Shown piece by piece: positions 1,932 to 16,335 of a stretch of 20,451 nt of DNA. Origin of the DNA: a virus. The translations under genes were made by a program, and so were the position numbers. The stretch is from IMG/VR virus record IMGVR_UViG_3300035689_000108, positions 1-20,451 of that record, one strand, 5' to 3'. A model generated the notes under the pieces. It was not told the origin of the DNA. It worked only from the letters and a program-made list of their open reading frames with translations, and ran no database searches. Numbering within the stretch: position 1 is the first letter of the stretch; every line of letters begins with the position of its first letter.

Positions 1932-2000
1932 GAATAGAGAGATATTGAGAGGTCGATCTGGGTCGTTTATAGCTTAGGGTAGTGGTGCGTTTTTATATCA

Positions 2001-2014
2001 CGGGGGCGCCCCCG
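2001..2014. repeat. Perfect 14-bp GC palindrome
   Basis: CGGGGGCGCCCCCG is its own reverse complement. It lies in the 213-base gene-free stretch 1879-2091, downstream of the 2092-2433 gene on the minus strand, and is followed in that direction by an AT-rich run. It may be the remains of a terminator at the left edge of the GC-rich block. Confidence 0.5.
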
Positions 2015-2091
2015 ATCGCGCACGGCGGCGGGGGACTGTCGTTCACGAACGAACGCATAAGGCGACCAACCCCCCACCAGACCCCAGAAGG

Positions 2092-2433
2092 TCAGAAGCG
2101 GACTGCCAGAGCAGAATGCCCGACGCGATCTGCCAGACGGTCACGGGCCGCGGCGATACGGTCGGCGCGATGCTGTGCCTTAGCGTTGCTAATGGTGCCC
2201 TTAAGATCAGCGACCATCTCACGACCCATCCCACCAACGGGATTCAGAGTGACCCCACGACCGACACACCGATCGCCGCTGCCCTGACCCCGACCACGAA
2301 CGGTGACGGATTCATCTCCATCACCACGGCGGACTTGCCCAACAGAAGCGCCACGCCCACGCTGACCCTGACGCTGCCAAAGTTCATCAGCACGGGGGTT
2401 GCGGCGGGGCAGGCGGGTAACGGTGTAGGTCAT
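2092..2433 (-). CDS. Arg/Gly-rich basic hypothetical protein (113 aa)
   Basis: Starts MTYTVTRLPRRNPRADELWQ. The first 65 residues are dominated by Arg and Gly (GQRGRGASVGQVRRGDGD, VRGRGQGSGDRCVGRG), like an RG-rich RNA- or DNA-binding tail. The last 40 form a predicted amphipathic helix (LKGTISNAKAQHRADRIAAA). The ATG at 2433 is set by the promoter-leader cassette at 2434-2464; the frame stays open upstream, but that part overlaps the -10 box. GC content is very high, as in the neighbours. Not recognised; nucleic-acid binding is inference. Confidence 0.65.
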   Translation of the reverse strand: MTYTVTRLPRRNPRADELWQRQGQRGRGASVGQVRRGDGDESVTVRGRGQGSGDRCVGRGVTLNPVGGMGREMVADLKGTISNAKAQHRADRIAAARDRLADRVGHSALAVRF

Positions 2434-2464
2434 CGGGGTGGGGTGGTGAACTGAGAGAATTGTA
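2434..2464 (-). promoter_or_regulatory. Promoter-leader cassette, CTCAGTTC type
   Basis: TACAAT at 2464-2459 is followed by TCTCTCAGTTCACC and the ATG after 25 bases. It is one of eight near-identical cassettes in this block. There is no convincing -35 hexamer. Confidence 0.7.
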
Positions 2465-2482
2465 GCACGGGCAGGGGGAGGG

Positions 2483-2662
2483 TCACCAGGTCGGCAGTGC
2501 CTCCTGTGCCTCATCGCGATGTGCCTCAGAGAACTGCCCTGCCCACGTGACGGCATCAGTTCCCCACGGCGGGGTCAGGCGGTTGAAGTTGGTGCCGTCG
2601 TTGCGGTAGGCGACCCAGATGGTCTGACGGTCGGTGAGGCGGGTGGCAGGAGAGAGGCGCAT
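2483..2662 (-). CDS. Hypothetical protein (59 aa)
   Basis: Starts MRLSPATRLTDRQTIWVAYR and ends with an acidic helix (FSEAHRDEAQEALPTW). The ATG is chosen because it lies 24 bases after the -10 box of its own cassette; a longer frame upstream runs through that promoter. Trp- and Arg-rich, no membrane segment. The pattern (an N-terminal strand pair followed by a helix) suits a small host-interacting protein, but I do not recognise it. Confidence 0.7.
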   Translation of the reverse strand: MRLSPATRLTDRQTIWVAYRNDGTNFNRLTPPWGTDAVTWAGQFSEAHRDEAQEALPTW

Positions 2663-2692
2663 TGGTTCGGGGTGTGAACTGAGAGAATTGTA
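2663..2692 (-). promoter_or_regulatory. Promoter-leader cassette, CTCAGTTC type
   Basis: TACAAT at 2692-2687, then TCTCTCAGTTCACACC and ATG at 2662. Just upstream of it GCACGTTCCGTGGC can form a short hairpin near the stop of the 2712-2957 gene. Confidence 0.7.
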
Positions 2693-2711
2693 GCACGTTC
2701 CGTGGCACAGA

Positions 2712-2957
2712 TCAGGCGACGGATTTGGCGGCAAGCATCAGGGCGTGGAATTTATGGAATTCGTGGGTCATGCCAGGGGAGAGCGTCGGGCGTCCCTTGC
2801 TGCCGTGAGCGGGAAGGTGGAAGGTCTGAGCGATGGCGGGATGGGTCACCTTGTCGTGACTGCCACCAGGTTTGATCGTGCCTCCTGATTTAATGATGAG
2901 GCGGCGGGCATCGCGGATCTTCAGGGGTTGCATCGGGTCCGTTGCTTTGGTTCCCAT
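2712..2957 (-). CDS. HicA-like protein (81 aa)
   Basis: After MGTKATDPMQPLKIRDARRL comes SGGTIKPGGSHDKVTHP and then FHLPAHGSKGRPTLSPG. The GSH-x-K-x-x-HP element followed by a Pro-x-His strand and a helix matches the double-stranded-RNA-binding-like fold of HicA toxins, mRNA interferases in which that His is catalytic. A start at ATG 2933 (MQPLKIRD) is also possible. No HicB-like antitoxin is visible next to it. It lacks the CTCAGTTC cassette of its neighbours; instead a strong GC hairpin ends 8 bases before the ATG. The toxin role is unproven. Confidence 0.7.
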   Translation of the reverse strand: MGTKATDPMQPLKIRDARRLIIKSGGTIKPGGSHDKVTHPAIAQTFHLPAHGSKGRPTLSPGMTHEFHKFHALMLAAKSVA

Positions 2958-2965
2958 AGCATAAA

Positions 2966-2991
2966 CCCCCCAGCGGCGAACCGTAGGGGGG
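2966..2991 (-). terminator. Hairpin terminator before the HicA-like gene
   Basis: Six C (2966-2971) pair with six G (2986-2991), and the inner GCGG/CCGT pairs around a CGAA loop. On the minus strand the stem is followed by TTTAT, so it can end transcription of the 3004-3147 gene. The G-rich 3' arm is also the only SD-like sequence before the HicA-like ATG, so the folded stem could hide its ribosome binding site. Confidence 0.6.
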
Positions 2992-3003
2992 CAATGGTCA
3001 GAT

Positions 3004-3147
3004 TCAGAATTGGATGGGTTCGGCGGTCGGTTCGCCGTCACCGTCCTGAGCGATGCGTTGTCCGTCAGAGAGTCCTTCCAGGATGCTCAGAATCTGGGAA
3101 CCGTTGCGACCCTGGCGGAGCAGGGAAAGGGCAAGGTCAAGGGTCAT
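3004..3147 (-). CDS. Small hypothetical protein (47 aa)
   Basis: Starts MTLDLALSLLRQGRNGSQIL. An amphipathic helix with a G-x-x-G-x-x-IL turn is followed by an acidic, Pro-containing tail (QDGDGEPTAEPIQF). The type is familiar from marine T4-like phages as an uncharacterised short protein. A CACAAT sequence precedes the start by only 12 bases, so its promoter is less clear than those of its neighbours; transcription may also come from the gene upstream. Confidence 0.65.
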   Translation of the reverse strand: MTLDLALSLLRQGRNGSQILSILEGLSDGQRIAQDGDGEPTAEPIQF

Positions 3148-3212
3148 GGGTATGCTAGGATTGTGAGTTGGTTTGGTGTGGGCGTCTTTCAGGGCGCACC
3201 CGTTCCCATGAG

Positions 3213-3377
3213 TCAGGCGGCGACCAGCAGATCCTCCTCCCAGCGGTAGAAGGTCAGAATCTCAGCGTAGGGGTCAACCTCCACAGTGGGGGCATTCGCT
3301 CTCATGATCGCTGCCTTGCACTGGGCGGCAATCTCATCAATGCTGAGGGCGCGGTCGGTGGCGGGGTTGTAGCGCAT
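3213..3377 (-). CDS. Small hypothetical protein (54 aa)
   Basis: Starts MRYNPATDRALSIDEIAAQC. Helical N-terminal half, then VEVDPYAEILTFYRWEEDLL. The ATG sits 25 bases after the -10 of its own cassette. Soluble, slightly acidic, one Cys. Not recognised. Confidence 0.7.
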   Translation of the reverse strand: MRYNPATDRALSIDEIAAQCKAAIMRANAPTVEVDPYAEILTFYRWEEDLLVAA

Positions 3378-3408
3378 GGTGTGGTTCGTTTGAACTGAGA
3401 GTATTGTA
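3378..3408 (-). promoter_or_regulatory. Promoter-leader cassette, CTCAGTTC type
   Basis: TACAAT at 3408-3403 followed by ACTCTCAGTTCAAACGAACC and ATG at 3377. Confidence 0.75.
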
Positions 3409-3418
3409 GAGCAGTTTA

Positions 3419-3437
3419 GGGTCAGTGCTCAGGACCC
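3419..3437. repeat. GC hairpin upstream of the 3378-3408 promoter
   Basis: GGGTC (3419-3423) pairs with GACCC (3433-3437). It lies between the stop-codon hairpin of the 3451-3627 gene and the next -10 box, the position where other cassettes also have a second GC hairpin. Confidence 0.5.
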
Positions 3438-3439
3438 GT

Positions 3440-3461
3440 ATGCCAGTTGATCAATCGGCAT
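3440..3461. repeat. GTGCCAGTT-family hairpin at a stop codon
   Basis: ATGCC and GGCAT arms flank a TTGATCAA palindrome. The TGA stop of the 3451-3627 gene lies in the centre. It is a diverged member of the hairpin family found between many genes here. Confidence 0.6.
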
Positions 3462-3627
3462 AGAGGGAGATGAAGTCCTCCACGAACTCCCGTGCCTCAT
3501 CGCCACTCATGCGGGAGATCATCTCACGGGCGACGGTCTCCCAGGAGAAGTCGTCTGCCAGGTCAAAGATGGCGCACCGTGCCTGAGAGGCGCTGAGGTT
3601 GGCGGCGGTGATCTGAGCGTAGGTCAT
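3451..3627 (-). CDS. Small acidic hypothetical protein (58 aa)
   Basis: Starts MTYAQITAANLSASQARCAI. An all-helical protein with many Asp and Glu (DLADDFSWETVAREMISRMS, then EFVEDFISLYAD). The ATG is fixed by its cassette, whose leader carries AAAGGAA as a good SD sequence. The start MTY is shared with the 2092-2433 product, but the rest is unrelated. I recognise the type as a cyanophage hypothetical protein. Function unknown. Confidence 0.75.
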   Translation of the reverse strand: MTYAQITAANLSASQARCAIFDLADDFSWETVAREMISRMSGDEAREFVEDFISLYAD

Positions 3628-3655
3628 GGGGTTCCTTTGAACTGAGAGTATTGTA
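3628..3655 (-). promoter_or_regulatory. Promoter-leader cassette, CTCAGTTC type with SD
   Basis: TACAAT at 3655-3650, then ACTCTCAGTTCAAAGGAACC and ATG at 3627 after 22 bases. The AAAGGAA is a clear SD sequence, so the cassette supplies both promoter and ribosome binding site. Confidence 0.8.
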
Positions 3656-3675
3656 AGGGGTCGGGGTGGGGTCTG

Positions 3676-3699
3676 AAGGGGTGGGTTGTGCCACCCCTT
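3676..3699. terminator. Hairpin between two small genes
   Basis: AAGGGGTGG and CCACCCCTT form a perfect 9-bp stem with a 6-base loop. It lies 6 bases beyond the stop of the 3706-3891 gene and before the next promoter. Without a T-run on the minus strand it is a weak terminator or a processing/stability element. Confidence 0.55.
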
Positions 3700-3705
3700 T
3701 GATTG

Positions 3706-3891
3706 TCACTCCATCCCCATCGCTTCCTTCAGGGCATTGTATGCCGCCAACCAGTGGGCGGCATCATCATGGTTGCCCTTGGTGCTCTCATCACAGGCGA
3801 TGCACAGGAGCGCGGTGCGGATGGTGCCCCACTTGCCTTCGGGCAGGGTGACGGTCGTCAGGGTCTCAGGGTTCCAGGGGGCAGCGGTCAT
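3706..3891 (-). CDS. Small hypothetical protein (61 aa)
   Basis: Starts MTAAPWNPETLTTVTLPEGK and continues as two helices (IRTALLCIACDESTKGNHDD, AAHWLAAYNALKEAMGME). Two Cys and two His are present, but not in a recognisable zinc pattern. Its own cassette lies 23 bases upstream. Not recognised. Confidence 0.7.
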   Translation of the reverse strand: MTAAPWNPETLTTVTLPEGKWGTIRTALLCIACDESTKGNHDDAAHWLAAYNALKEAMGME

Positions 3892-3920
3892 GGGAGGTCG
3901 TCTGAACTGAAAGTATTGTA
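3892..3920 (-). promoter_or_regulatory. Promoter-leader cassette, CTTTCAGTTC variant
   Basis: TACAAT at 3920-3915, then ACTTTCAGTTCAGACGACCT and ATG at 3891. One base differs from the CTCAGTTC core. Confidence 0.7.
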
Positions 3921-3933
3921 AGGGGTCTGGGGG

Positions 3934-4185
3934 TCAGAATGCCACCAGCTGGTCCAGATCCCATTGTGGCACACTGGCGACCCCATCGATCACGTAGGCG
4001 CCCTGATTCTTCCGCAACCAGGCGTTGATGTGCTTGGTGGTGGTGGCGCTCCACTGGTAGGCGGTGCGGATCCACCCTTTGCCAGGCACGATCGCGGCGA
4101 CGGGTTGATCATAGGAGAACAGGATGCAGGTCCCGTCTGCCAGGGTCACCTCAGTTTGGTTGCTGCCGACTTGCTGGACTTTCAT
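3934..4185 (-). CDS. Conserved hypothetical protein (83 aa)
   Basis: Starts MKVQQVGSNQTEVTLADGTC. An N-terminal beta-sheet is followed by WSATTTKHINAWLRKNQGAY and a C-terminal strand. The block around TTTKHIN-x-WL is familiar from cyanophage hypothetical proteins. ATG at 4185 is 24 bases after the -10 of a cassette with TATACT. No membrane segment. Function unknown. Confidence 0.8.
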   Translation of the reverse strand: MKVQQVGSNQTEVTLADGTCILFSYDQPVAAIVPGKGWIRTAYQWSATTTKHINAWLRKNQGAYVIDGVASVPQWDLDQLVAF

Positions 4186-4215
4186 GGTGGGGTCGTTTGA
4201 ACTGAGATCAGTATA
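4186..4215 (-). promoter_or_regulatory. Promoter-leader cassette, TATACT-GATCTCAGTTC variant
   Basis: CCCCTTATACT ending at 4210 is followed by GATCTCAGTTCAAACGACC and ATG at 4185. It is the same form as the one at 4948-4975, so two sub-families of the cassette exist. Confidence 0.75.
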
Positions 4216-4257
4216 AGGGGTCAGCGGTGCCCTTTGGGGCAGGGAGTGGACAGTGCC

Positions 4258-4416
4258 TCAGGTGTCCTCATCCTCCCCCAGAATGAACCCATCAACCCAT
4301 CCTGCTGTGTATCCGTCATCTTTGGTGAACAGGCGGATCTTAAGAAGTTTGGCGATTGCAAAGGGCAAACCGATCACCAGGGCTCCAGGGATGAGAATGG
4401 CAAGCAGTTCGGTCAT
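4258..4416 (-). CDS. Small membrane protein (52 aa)
   Basis: Starts MTELLAILIPGALVIGLPFA. One hydrophobic helix (about residues 4-24) is followed by a basic stretch (KLLKIRLFTK) and an acidic tail (GEDEDT), so the C-terminus is probably cytoplasmic by the positive-inside rule. Own cassette with SD 22 bases upstream. Function unknown; likely in the host inner or thylakoid membrane. Confidence 0.75.
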   Translation of the reverse strand: MTELLAILIPGALVIGLPFAIAKLLKIRLFTKDDGYTAGWVDGFILGEDEDT

Positions 4417-4444
4417 GGGGTTCCTTTGAACTGAGAGTATTGTA
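4417..4444 (-). promoter_or_regulatory. Promoter-leader cassette, CTCAGTTC type with SD
   Basis: TACAAT at 4444-4439, then ACTCTCAGTTCAAAGGAACC and ATG at 4416. Bases from -10 to ATG are identical to the cassette at 3628-3655. Confidence 0.8.
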
Positions 4445-4449
4445 GCGGG

Positions 4450-4614
4450 TCAGCGGGCGATCAGGTCGCCTGCAGTGTACAGTGCCTGAGCTGTCACAGT
4501 GCGGACGGGACGGATCGGTTCCCAGAGCAACCACAGCAGCAGAGCACCAACGGTCAGGCGAAGCATGGTAGCACGGTGGAAGTCAGCGGAGCGGGAACGG
4601 GTCAGGGATCGCAT
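4450..4614 (-). CDS. Small single-span membrane protein (54 aa)
   Basis: Starts MRSLTRSRSADFHRATMLRL at ATG 4614, which overlaps the stop of the upstream gene (TGATG). A second in-frame ATG at 4566 would give 38 residues. A basic N-terminus precedes a hydrophobic helix (LTVGALLLWLLWEPIRP), then a short helical tail. I recognise this as a conserved small cyanophage membrane protein. The stop is only 5 bases before the -10 of the next promoter. Confidence 0.75.
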   Translation of the reverse strand: MRSLTRSRSADFHRATMLRLTVGALLLWLLWEPIRPVRTVTAQALYTAGDLIAR

Positions 4615-4796
4615 CATGCGGGCAGGATGGAGTCCATCAATTCAACTTCGCGGGGTCCGTCAACGATCCATTCCTGCCACTCTTCAAACAGAGCATTCCT
4701 GGCGGCAACGTTGCCACTCTGCTGATGATGGTACATTGCGACCTTGACGGCGTGGATCAGGTCGTGGATCATGGCGGTGCGTTGGTTGTCGTTCAT
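4614..4796 (-). CDS. Small hypothetical protein (60 aa)
   Basis: Starts MNDNQRTAMIHDLIHAVKVA, all helical, with a His-rich segment (AMYHHQQSGNVAARNALFEE) and an acidic C-terminal half. The ATG at 4796 is 4 bases after the stop of the upstream gene; an earlier in-frame start would overlap that gene. Middle gene of a three-gene unit from the promoter at 4970. Not recognised. Confidence 0.7.
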   Translation of the reverse strand: MNDNQRTAMIHDLIHAVKVAMYHHQQSGNVAARNALFEEWQEWIVDGPREVELMDSILPA

Positions 4797-4800
4797 TGTA

Positions 4801-4947
4801 TCAGGCAGCAAGGTGAGCAGGGGAACCGCAGGAACGGTAGAAGTCTACCATGCGCTCCGCTTCCTCAAGGGTGGGGAACCATTGCGAGCGCCACTCACAG
4901 GCATTGTAGGGGACCTGGTAACGGACTTCGTAGCGGATCAGTGCCAT
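4801..4947 (-). CDS. Small hypothetical protein (48 aa)
   Basis: Starts MALIRYEVRYQVPYNACEWR. Beta-hairpin-like N-terminus, then a helix (TLEEAERMVDFYRSCGSP), the pattern of a small beta-beta-alpha domain. First gene after the promoter at 4948-4975. Not recognised. Confidence 0.7.
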   Translation of the reverse strand: MALIRYEVRYQVPYNACEWRSQWFPTLEEAERMVDFYRSCGSPAHLAA

Positions 4948-4975
4948 TGGGTTCGTTTGAACTGAGATCAGTATA
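4948..4975 (-). promoter_or_regulatory. Promoter-leader cassette, TATACT-GATCTCAGTTC variant
   Basis: CCCCTTATACT ending at 4970, then GATCTCAGTTCAAACGAACC and ATG at 4947 after 22 bases. It is preceded by a nested inverted repeat (4977-5043). Confidence 0.75.
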
Positions 4976-4976
4976 A

Positions 4977-5043
4977 GGGGTCAGGGGGGCAGGTCTACGG
5001 GGTGTGTGCCAGTTCAAAAGGTGGCACACGGGCGGCTGACCCC
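4977..5043. repeat. Nested inverted repeat at the right edge of the GC-rich block
   Basis: Outer arms GGGGTCAG (4977-4984) and CTGACCCC (5036-5043) are perfect. Inside, GTGTGCCA (5004-5011) and TGGCACAC (5022-5029) form the best copy of the recurring intergenic hairpin. Beyond the outer arms, GTATA on one side and GTATAC on the other extend the symmetry into the -10 box. On the minus strand it lies 14 bases after the stop of the 5058-5954 gene. Confidence 0.7.
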
Positions 5044-7751: not shown

Positions 7752-7796
7752 ACATTTCACTATATACTATACACTTTGTTACACCATACAATAACA

Positions 7797-8543
7797 ATGT
7801 CCAGAGGCATCATTTATCTCATTCTTAACAAGCAAACAGGTGAAAAATACGTCGGAAACACCACACTTGCGATGAATAAAGAATGGGTACACCACATAGA
7901 CCGTTCCAAGAGAATGTCTGCAGAACCCTTACATAAGGCATTTCGTCAGTATGGTGTGCATAACTTTATGATTAAAGAACTGGATGAATATGATGATACC
8001 TGTTTAGAGAGTAAACTGAATGAATGGATAGACAAATATAAACCTGAATACAATCCTATAAAAGAAAAAGAAATTATACAAGAGAAACCAAAACCTATTC
8101 CGACACCTGTTGTAAAAGAAAAAAGAAACTATAATGCAGATAACTTAAAACCATTCAATGAACACACTCGTGGTAATGGTAAACATCTTGGGTTAAAGAT
8201 AAGAGGAAAGAACTTACAAACTGGTGTGTGTAAAGACTATGATAGTGCAAGAGATGCGGCAATAGATGTGACAGGTAATCCGAATGCAAATGGAAATATA
8301 CTAAATGCTGCCCGTAAGTACCGCATTGCCTATGGTCATCGGTGGCAGATCTTAGAAGACAAGAATAAGAAAAAAGCGGTATTTGGTGTCAGTAAAAAAA
8401 CCGAACTCATTGAAGTTCGGTATGAATCAATTGCCGCTGCTGTGAGAGATCTTGGTGGCTCAGCATACAACACTGATATTGTAAGAAGTCTACGCAACCC
8501 TGGGCGTTATAGTTGGCGTGGTTACTTTTGGTTCTTTGGTTGA
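7797..8543 (+). CDS. GIY-YIG homing endonuclease, free-standing
   Basis: A 248-residue protein. GIIYLILNKQTGEKYVG (residues 4-20) is the GIY-YIG core, and E76 and Asn86 in NEWIDKYKPEYNP fit the metal-binding Glu and the conserved Asn. The usual catalytic Arg (as in I-TevI EKRW) appears as Glu in NKEW, so cleavage may be impaired or another Arg substitutes. A Lys/Pro linker (90-115) leads to two DNA-binding modules: about 132-193 (DYDSARDAAIDV ... YGHRWQI) and 196-248 (YESIAAAVRDLG ... YSWRGYFWFF), similar to intron-encoded nuclease repeats. ATG 7797 is preferred over an in-frame TTG at 7776. It is the only plus-strand gene. Confidence 0.9.
   Translation: MSRGIIYLILNKQTGEKYVGNTTLAMNKEWVHHIDRSKRMSAEPLHKAFRQYGVHNFMIKELDEYDDTCLESKLNEWIDKYKPEYNPIKEKEIIQEKPKPIPTPVVKEKRNYNADNLKPFNEHTRGNGKHLGLKIRGKNLQTGVCKDYDSARDAAIDVTGNPNANGNILNAARKYRIAYGHRWQILEDKNKKKAVFGVSKKTELIEVRYESIAAAVRDLGGSAYNTDIVRSLRNPGRYSWRGYFWFFG
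8394..8421 (-). terminator. Intrinsic terminator inside the endonuclease gene, antisense
   Basis: ACCGAACT (8400-8407) and AGTTCGGT (8414-8421) form a perfect 8-bp stem with a 6-base loop. On the minus strand the stem is followed by a run of T (8400-8394). It would stop minus-strand transcripts of the operon at 8606-10921 before they run antisense through the endonuclease. On the plus strand no T-run follows, so the endonuclease mRNA should not be cut short. Confidence 0.7.
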
Positions 8544-15192: not shown

Positions 15193-15405
15193 TCAGTCGT
15201 CATAAACTCTACACTCTAATGCGTTAGGATTGGCATCACAATAAAGTTCCAGAGGAGTAGGGTCGTGCGAATCTTCTGGATGATGCTCTTTATAAACTTT
15301 AAGAGCTTCCAATTCTTCTTCTGTATGTCTCCGTGCCTGTGGAGAAATTGTTGGGTCATTCAAAAGTTCTACGTCTTTTTGAATGTGTTGATCGATATTG
15401 TCCAT
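15193..15405 (-). CDS. cp12: Cyanophage CP12, Calvin-cycle inhibitor
   Basis: A 70-residue, Glu/Asp-rich protein starting MDNIDQHIQKDVELLNDPTI. The end LELYCDANPNALECRVYDD carries the C-terminal CP12 signature: Cys56 and Cys65 eight residues apart around a Pro, then Arg, Tyr and Asp. In CP12 this disulphide loop binds GAPDH, and the protein links GAPDH with phosphoribulokinase, switching off carbon fixation. The N-terminal Cys pair is absent and the AWD-x-VEEL core is reduced to EEELEAL, as I remember for phage CP12. During infection it is thought to divert NADPH to nucleotide synthesis. It follows the bilin reductase by 20 bases and may be co-transcribed. Confidence 0.9.
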   Translation of the reverse strand: MDNIDQHIQKDVELLNDPTISPQARRHTEEELEALKVYKEHHPEDSHDPTPLELYCDANPNALECRVYDD

Positions 15406-15425
15406 TGGAATACAAAACGTTAAGG

Positions 15426-16043
15426 TTATTTATTGGAAAATAAAAAGTTATTAATATATTCGTCAGCAAAATCTTTATTAAAATATGATTTTAAAATTCC
15501 ATATGCTGGATCATTGGTTTTCATATAAGAATTATATTCATTTTGTTGTTGCTCAAATGTAATAATATTCTTTTCTTCAGAATATAAACATTTTTTATAT
15601 TGATGCAGAAAACATTTTAACATTATTTGGTATTCATCATAAAAGTCTTCTGTTTCTCTTCTAACCCAGAGTTTCTCGGAGAAAAATTTATTTAAATCAT
15701 AAACATTAGTTCTAATTTCTTTCTTATCTGGAAATATGTCTAAAAATTTTAAATATTTTTTATTATCTGTAATTGGGTGAAAATCAATTGCCCCAAAATA
15801 CCTCTTGGAACCTATTTTAAGATATTCTGTACCAAAAATTGGAGTTTCATAATGAAAATCTGGATAAATGACTAGACTTTCGGCATAAAATTTAGATTCA
15901 ACTTCAAATTTACAAAATCTTATCTTATGACATCGTTCTGAATCACAGATATAGGATTTTAAAGATAAATGATTTTTCTTTAAATTTGTTTTTACGATTA
16001 CATTGGTCAATTCAAAAAATTCAGCAACAATATGATCAATCAT
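15426..16043 (-). CDS. pebA: Ferredoxin-dependent bilin reductase, PebA-like
   Basis: A 205-residue protein (208 if GTG 16052 is used) starting MIDHIVAEFFELTNVI. IYPDFHYETPIFG and GAIDFHPI match the central sheet of the family, with the catalytic-type Asp87; TNDPAYGILKSYF holds the second conserved Asp178, and NNFLFSNK is the typical ending. YPD-x-x-Y-x-x-P points to PebA (biliverdin to 15,16-dihydrobiliverdin) rather than PcyA or PebS, though I cannot align it. Family members have about 230-250 residues, so the N-terminus is short. The gene is far more AT-rich than its neighbours, a sign of separate acquisition. No heme oxygenase gene is in view. Confidence 0.82.
   Translation of the reverse strand: MIDHIVAEFFELTNVIVKTNLKKNHLSLKSYICDSERCHKIRFCKFEVESKFYAESLVIYPDFHYETPIFGTEYLKIGSKRYFGAIDFHPITDNKKYLKFLDIFPDKKEIRTNVYDLNKFFSEKLWVRRETEDFYDEYQIMLKCFLHQYKKCLYSEEKNIITFEQQQNEYNSYMKTNDPAYGILKSYFNKDFADEYINNFLFSNK
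15427..15434 (-). promoter_or_regulatory. Possible T4-type late promoter before CP12
   Basis: AATAAATA on the minus strand (15434-15427) differs in one base from the T4 late consensus and lies 21 bases before the CP12 ATG, overlapping the stop of the bilin reductase gene. The AT-rich setting makes chance likely. Confidence 0.3.
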
Positions 16044-16044
16044 T

Positions 16045-16251
16045 TTACTCACTTAAAGAAGATCCTCTCCAATTTTTAGGTGGTGGTGGGTCACACTTAC
16101 CTTCAAGTGAACGAACCATTAACTCAGCAAACTTTTCCATTTTTTCTGCAGAAACTGTTTGTGGAGCATAACTAATTGCCTCTTTGAGAGCAACAAGTTC
16201 ATCCCATTCTTCTTTTGTAAGAACTTCAGTGCCAGTTTTTGCGAGAGTCAT
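16045..16251 (-). CDS. Conserved hypothetical protein (68 aa)
   Basis: Starts MTLAKTGTEVLTKEEWDELV at ATG 16251, chosen for the AAGGAA SD 3 bases upstream; an in-frame start at 16293 adds 14 residues. Helical, then VSAEKMEKFAELMVRSLEGK and a Pro/Ser end. The LTKEEWDELVALK block is one I recognise from cyanophages. Its stop lies within the start region of the bilin reductase gene, so the two are probably coupled. Confidence 0.8.
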   Translation of the reverse strand: MTLAKTGTEVLTKEEWDELVALKEAISYAPQTVSAEKMEKFAELMVRSLEGKCDPPPPKNWRGSSLSE

Positions 16252-16335
16252 ACTTTCCTTGCGTTGTGTCCCAATATTAGCATTCCAATACATTACTATC
16301 TAGAAACTTAATGTTTTCTTTGGGATCACGTTACA

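Follow-up and report, generated by a model that had tools for sequence, protein, structure and literature searches.

A predicted bilin reductase of a phage-only clade, with glutamate in place of the central aspartate, encoded beside CP12 in a viral sequence

The window analysed here, an IMG/VR virus record of 20,451 bases, carries on its minus strand a gene for a ferredoxin-dependent bilin reductase (FDBR; 15426-16043) directly followed by a gene for CP12 (15193-15405). PebA is by score the nearest known type to this FDBR, yet from its sequence the protein is not a PebA and is instead assigned to a distinct clade, hereafter X, with members in phages only. It is reasonably probable that the protein is an active FDBR of this unnamed phage-only clade, encoded by an AT-rich insert, and that the neighbouring CP12 can be expressed separately. 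We infer the activity of the enzyme, its substrate, its product and the order of reduction, as well as the transcription of the gene pair, and these are worded conditionally throughout.

The gene pair and the predicted fold

The FDBR reading frame opens with an ATG at 16043 and closes with a stop at 15426 (205 amino acids), with a GTG at 16052 as the alternative start. Its ATG lies 1 nt from the stop codon of an upstream gene with no assigned function (16045-16293, minus strand; phrog_14124). The protein scores 89.6 bits against Pfam PF05996 (cut-off 31; E 3e-25), which places it in the FDBR superfamily. CP12, an inhibitor of carbon fixation, is encoded after a gap of 20 bp on the same strand as a protein of 70 amino acids with one C-terminal Cys pair, and matches both PF02672 (51.8 bits, cut-off 22.7; E 1.4e-13) and phrog_627 (E 7.5e-30). 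The identities, adjacency and coordinates of the two genes in the preliminary description of this DNA were therefore right.

The AlphaFold2 model of the FDBR (mean pLDDT 89.5) presents the alpha/beta/alpha sandwich of the FDBR fold and superposes on PebA with a Z of 24.4 over 203 residues (VIA-align), compared to 23.1 for PebS, 22.1 for PebB, 22.0 for HY2, 20-21 for PcyA and 17.2 for PcyX (5owg). The gene is under purifying selection, with a dN/dS of 0.055 between the window copy and a 95%-identical relative. Pairwise values among the genes of clade X range from 0.05 to 0.25, and these genes are thus maintained for a function. The dN/dS of 0.055, the model confidence and the superposition on PebA together argue that neither gene of the pair is a chance open reading frame.

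Placement among the known reductases

Searches of IMG/VR returned 9 loci with the window protein, 36 with its alignment and 79 with a C-terminal alignment, and the resulting clade X comprises 69 distinct members, exclusively from phages. Host PebA and PebB were drawn from 61 named cyanobacterial loci and the genomes reached through those loci, and PebS and PcyA for comparison from phage records and IMG/VR. In a tree of 125 rows, the window FDBR and 30 others form the single clade X (SH-aLRT 99), alongside clades of PebA (SH-aLRT 86; 32 PebA), PebS (SH-aLRT 100, including that of P-HM1) and PcyA (SH-aLRT 100); with three long-branched rows removed, X is still one clade (SH-aLRT 99). X is a separate clade in three trees and lies outside that of PebA (SH-aLRT 84-86). 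A phylogeny with PebA, PebB, PcyA, PebS and PcyX had been proposed for this gene; the present trees, built with the first four, place it outside PebS, whose own clade holds no member of X, and outside the PcyA branch. An origin in PcyX, described in the literature as a relative of PcyA, from which X stands apart in the tree, was considered and appears unlikely, as the X profile has no match to PcyX 5owg at E <= 1. Two viral scans with PcyA queries returned PcyA-like genes.

The AU test admits more than one branching order of X, PebA and PebS: a grouping of X with PebA is not rejected (p-AU 0.85), and one with PebS appears in the free tree of that test with weak support (77). The tree search used for the test was of the 'quick' kind and missed better constrained trees; only the clade itself, and no sister, is therefore claimed.

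Scores and distribution add to this placement. Profile matches in the PDB favour PebA (E 6e-21) over PebS (E 1.7e-15), with identities of 20-30% between the window protein and the known FDBR types. Of the NCBIfam equivalog models, the two for PebA give the protein 82 and 55 bits, where their cut-offs stand at 263 and 290, and the cut-offs for PebB and PcyA are also missed widely. A search of 291 cyanobacterial genomes with the X profile found no member of X; the best host scores, of about 96 bits, belong to PebA genes adjoining PebB. Given clade X, viral genes labelled 'pebA' may conceal another enzyme. Three FDBRs from the Ocean Gene Atlas, reported in 2026 as near PebA, outside PebA, PebB and PebS, and perhaps a group of their own (PMC13198022), share this description with X and may belong to it. 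The phage FDBRs of the literature are PebS, PcyA and PcyX (PMC13193486 among the sources), and the open-licence papers found describe neither clade X nor its glutamate signature.

The active site and the probable reaction

In GtPEBB, catalysis involves the pair Asp-99 and Asp-219, equivalent to Asp-84 and Asp-205 of PebA; the first of these, the Asp of 'FGxD' by the numbering of that study, was termed critical in all FDBRs, and where PebA, PebB and PebS have been examined they cannot do without this central Asp (PMC6755814). The window FDBR presents Glu-73 (codon 15825-15827, minus strand) in the column of this first Asp (PebS D105, PebA D84, PebB D99 and PcyA D105) and retains the second as Asp-178 (codon 15510-15512, minus strand; PebS D206, PebB D219 and PebA D205). 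The replacement is found in 69 of 69 distinct X proteins, whereas all 93 comparison rows (32 PebA, 16 PebS, 31 PebB and 14 PcyA) bear Asp; tomato HY2 bears Asn. An earlier survey relied on the pattern PIFGTEY, which includes Glu-73 and is hence biased, and was repeated with the C-terminal pattern DPA[HYF]GI[LI]K, by which the set of 69 was retrieved and which lies far from Glu-73 but selects Asp-178. The second Asp was accordingly counted in a set not selected on that residue, where 30 of 31 X proteins retain it. Red chlorophyll catabolite reductase has Glu at the site of the FDBR central Asp.

Other pocket positions are altered as well. Ser or Thr occupies the column of PebS Asn-88 in every X protein (69/69), with Asn or His elsewhere, and the Gln of the DFQP motif is His in all 69; in the window this is His-89 of DFHP (codon 15777-15779, minus strand), where PebA, PebB and PebS have Gln and PcyA has Ser. 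The column of PcyA Glu-76 holds Cys in 66 of 69, and the window protein, while sharing the fold of PcyA and PcyX, lacks both Glu-76 and His-88 of PcyA, with Cys and Ser at those columns. At the column of PebB Arg-215 and PebS Met-202, X is divided between Met (35) and Leu (34), with Met in the branch of the window, as opposed to Met in PebS, mostly Ser in PebA and Arg in PebB and HY2.

Compared to PebA (15,16-DHBV:ferredoxin oxidoreductase; 2x9o), its best match in sequence (21% identity) and fold, X keeps the DPAxG motif but differs by Glu for Asp-84, Ser/Thr for Asn-67, His for Gln-101 and Met/Leu for Ser-201, by its restriction to phages and by the lack of a PebB partner in its contigs. With PebS, the phage phycoerythrobilin synthase, X shares its nature as a phage-borne single FDBR, the conserved Asp-206 and, in about half of its members, Met-202; it differs by Glu for Asp-105, Ser/Thr for Asn-88, His for Gln-121, a separate clade, an identity of 22% and other gene neighbours. 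The preliminary description had named the enzyme PebA-like, which stands as a statement of best match and not as one of membership, given the failed equivalog cut-offs, the separate clade, Glu for Asp-84 and Met for Ser. Its further view, that a divergent two-electron PebA produces 15,16-DHBV to be passed to the PebB of the host, we regard as somewhat unlikely: those same features, together with Met or Leu where PebA mostly has Ser, count against it, and the best match by sequence and fold and the unrejected grouping with PebA count in its favour. As the protein fails the cut-offs, clade and residues of PebA, a need for host PebB is unproven.

In the reading that we favour, the enzyme would most likely take biliverdin from the host and electrons from host photosynthetic ferredoxin. 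By analogy to its kin PebA, PebS and PUBS, the C15=C16 bond would be reduced first, with Glu-73 replacing the usual central Asp as the proton donor, and Asp-178 would serve as the second acid, perhaps for a subsequent reduction of the A-ring. A four-electron reduction to phycoerythrobilin by this single enzyme seems to have a slight edge over a reaction that ends after two electrons at 15,16-DHBV, as Asp-178 is kept and the branch of the window has Met where PebS has Met, although the occurrence of Leu at this position in about half of X is a counterpoint. In PebS, mutation of a crucial active-site Asp halts the reaction at DHBV (PMC13198022), and X keeps its second Asp. In general, phylogeny predicts the product of an FDBR poorly (PMC13193486).

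Because the central Asp is essential where tested (PMC6755814), its exchange for Glu, together with that of Asn for Ser or Thr, could alter or abolish the reaction. An altered reaction, in which another bond or another tetrapyrrole is reduced to a product not known from phages, is in our estimation unlikely; three polar active-site positions have changed together and are fixed across X, and small changes are known to switch FDBR products (PMC13193486), but X retains the second Asp and, as predicted, the overall fold. An abolished reaction, leaving a protein that binds or sequesters bilins, is more doubtful still. The essential Asp is indeed replaced in every member of X, but Glu is itself a carboxylate, conservation extends to the second Asp and to pocket residues, and purifying selection is strong. 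A broader proposition, that X constitutes a new functional class, cyanophage-borne and absent from hosts, in which a Glu/Asp pair rather than Asp/Asp catalyses a reaction of distinct regiochemistry or product, is offered tentatively. FDBR catalysis has hitherto been interpreted around a central Asp, present in every PebA, PebB, PebS and PcyA of the present alignment. With its fixed Glu and two nearby changes, the clade provides a natural test of what sets FDBR regiospecificity, and it may bear on whether PebS arose from or beside PebA, termed unsettled in the field (PMC13198022).

The CP12 neighbourhood and the carriers of clade X

The CP12 of the window is an ordinary cyanophage CP12 by its PF02672 and phrog_627 matches and its usual upstream motif, and is unlike others only in the FDBR insert that precedes it. 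The motif, ATAAATA (15427-15433, minus strand), occurs once in the window, where it overlaps the FDBR stop codon at a distance of 28 nt from the CP12 ATG. Cyanophage late-type promoters of the form NATAAATA, known as the late promoter of S-PM2 (PMC2984593), have this motif as their core. It recurs 26-29 nt upstream of the CP12 ATG in 70 of 80 viral CP12 loci, and at 26-30 bp in most viral CP12 genes overall; counted over distinct genes, it precedes 44 of 54 viral CP12 genes against 15 of 320 other ORFs (Fisher p 1e-34, a nominal value, the loci being related). All 54 distinct proteins carry two Cys. CP12 belongs to the middle genes of phage P-HM2 (PMC5082946), and the motif therefore leaves the timing of CP12 expression unfixed.

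In 66 of the 80 viral CP12 loci, the gene directly upstream of CP12 belongs to the family of the 16045-16293 gene, and it often has the same 'SLSE' ending, after which come the promoter motif and then CP12. This gene also stands before the FDBR in the window and wherever else FDBR and CP12 adjoin and the sequence extends far enough, and the FDBR gene has a GC content of 24% compared to 39-41% around it. Since CP12 keeps its own motif and most relatives have the upstream gene abutting CP12 without an FDBR, the FDBR looks like inserted cargo, and the simplest reading of these sequences is that of an AT-rich insert between the small upstream gene and CP12. CP12 having kept its own predicted late-type promoter, the two genes could be expressed separately, and transcription may also read through from the FDBR into CP12.

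These observations bear on the suggestion in the preliminary description that the pair forms a unit for redirecting reductant. Direct adjacency on the same strand was found at 10 of 86 X loci, requiring three changes on the X tree and lying in up to three places of it, and CP12 occurs within the flank of no PebS locus, both of which would suit a co-expressed functional unit. CP12 is, however, absent from the fetched stretch at 75 of the 86 X loci, the commoner arrangement is the upstream gene with CP12 and no FDBR, and the promoter motif before CP12, in the window as in 44 of 54 distinct loci, would serve CP12 on its own; the suggestion is thus not borne out, and we hold such a unit to be distinctly improbable. 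Coupling is plausible at two loci (L453 and L454), where the motif is missing and the CP12 start codon falls inside the 3' end of the FDBR gene, an overlap that counts in favour of a unit. CP12 was also noted within the flank of 15 of 80 phage PcyA loci (L376-L414), about 0.5 kb upstream of pcyA where both ends are seen.

Of 14 long X contigs, 9 carry genes of the psbA type, which identifies the carriers as cyanophages infecting cyanobacteria. No contig searched, with lengths of up to 246 kb, has an FDBR other than X. The preliminary description had also pointed to heme oxygenase as a check. No heme oxygenase gene was found in any X contig searched, but among 6 complete PebS phage genomes 3 likewise lack one, as do 8 PebS fragments, and its absence, being shared with complete PebS phages, is uninformative and was rejected as a discriminator. 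At approximately 34 X loci (L425-L468 and others), a glutaredoxin-like gene follows the FDBR and a carbamoyltransferase gene precedes it, the examples seen being on the other strand. One X gene (L436; G320:3375-3980) is interrupted by an internal TAA stop, so that either the copy is broken or the sequence is in error.

Elsewhere in the window, a GC-rich block (about 60%) at 2000-5000 is comprised of small minus-strand ORFs. A leader-like repeat, TACAATACTCTCAGTTCAAA, is found on the minus strand in at least 7 copies just before most ORF starts of this block, with no match in the phage collection. A small ORF of the block at 2712-3041 matches the phage toxin family phrog_18430 (E 1e-17). A gene for a GIY-YIG/HNH-type homing endonuclease lies at 7776-8543 on the plus strand, against the direction of most genes of the window.
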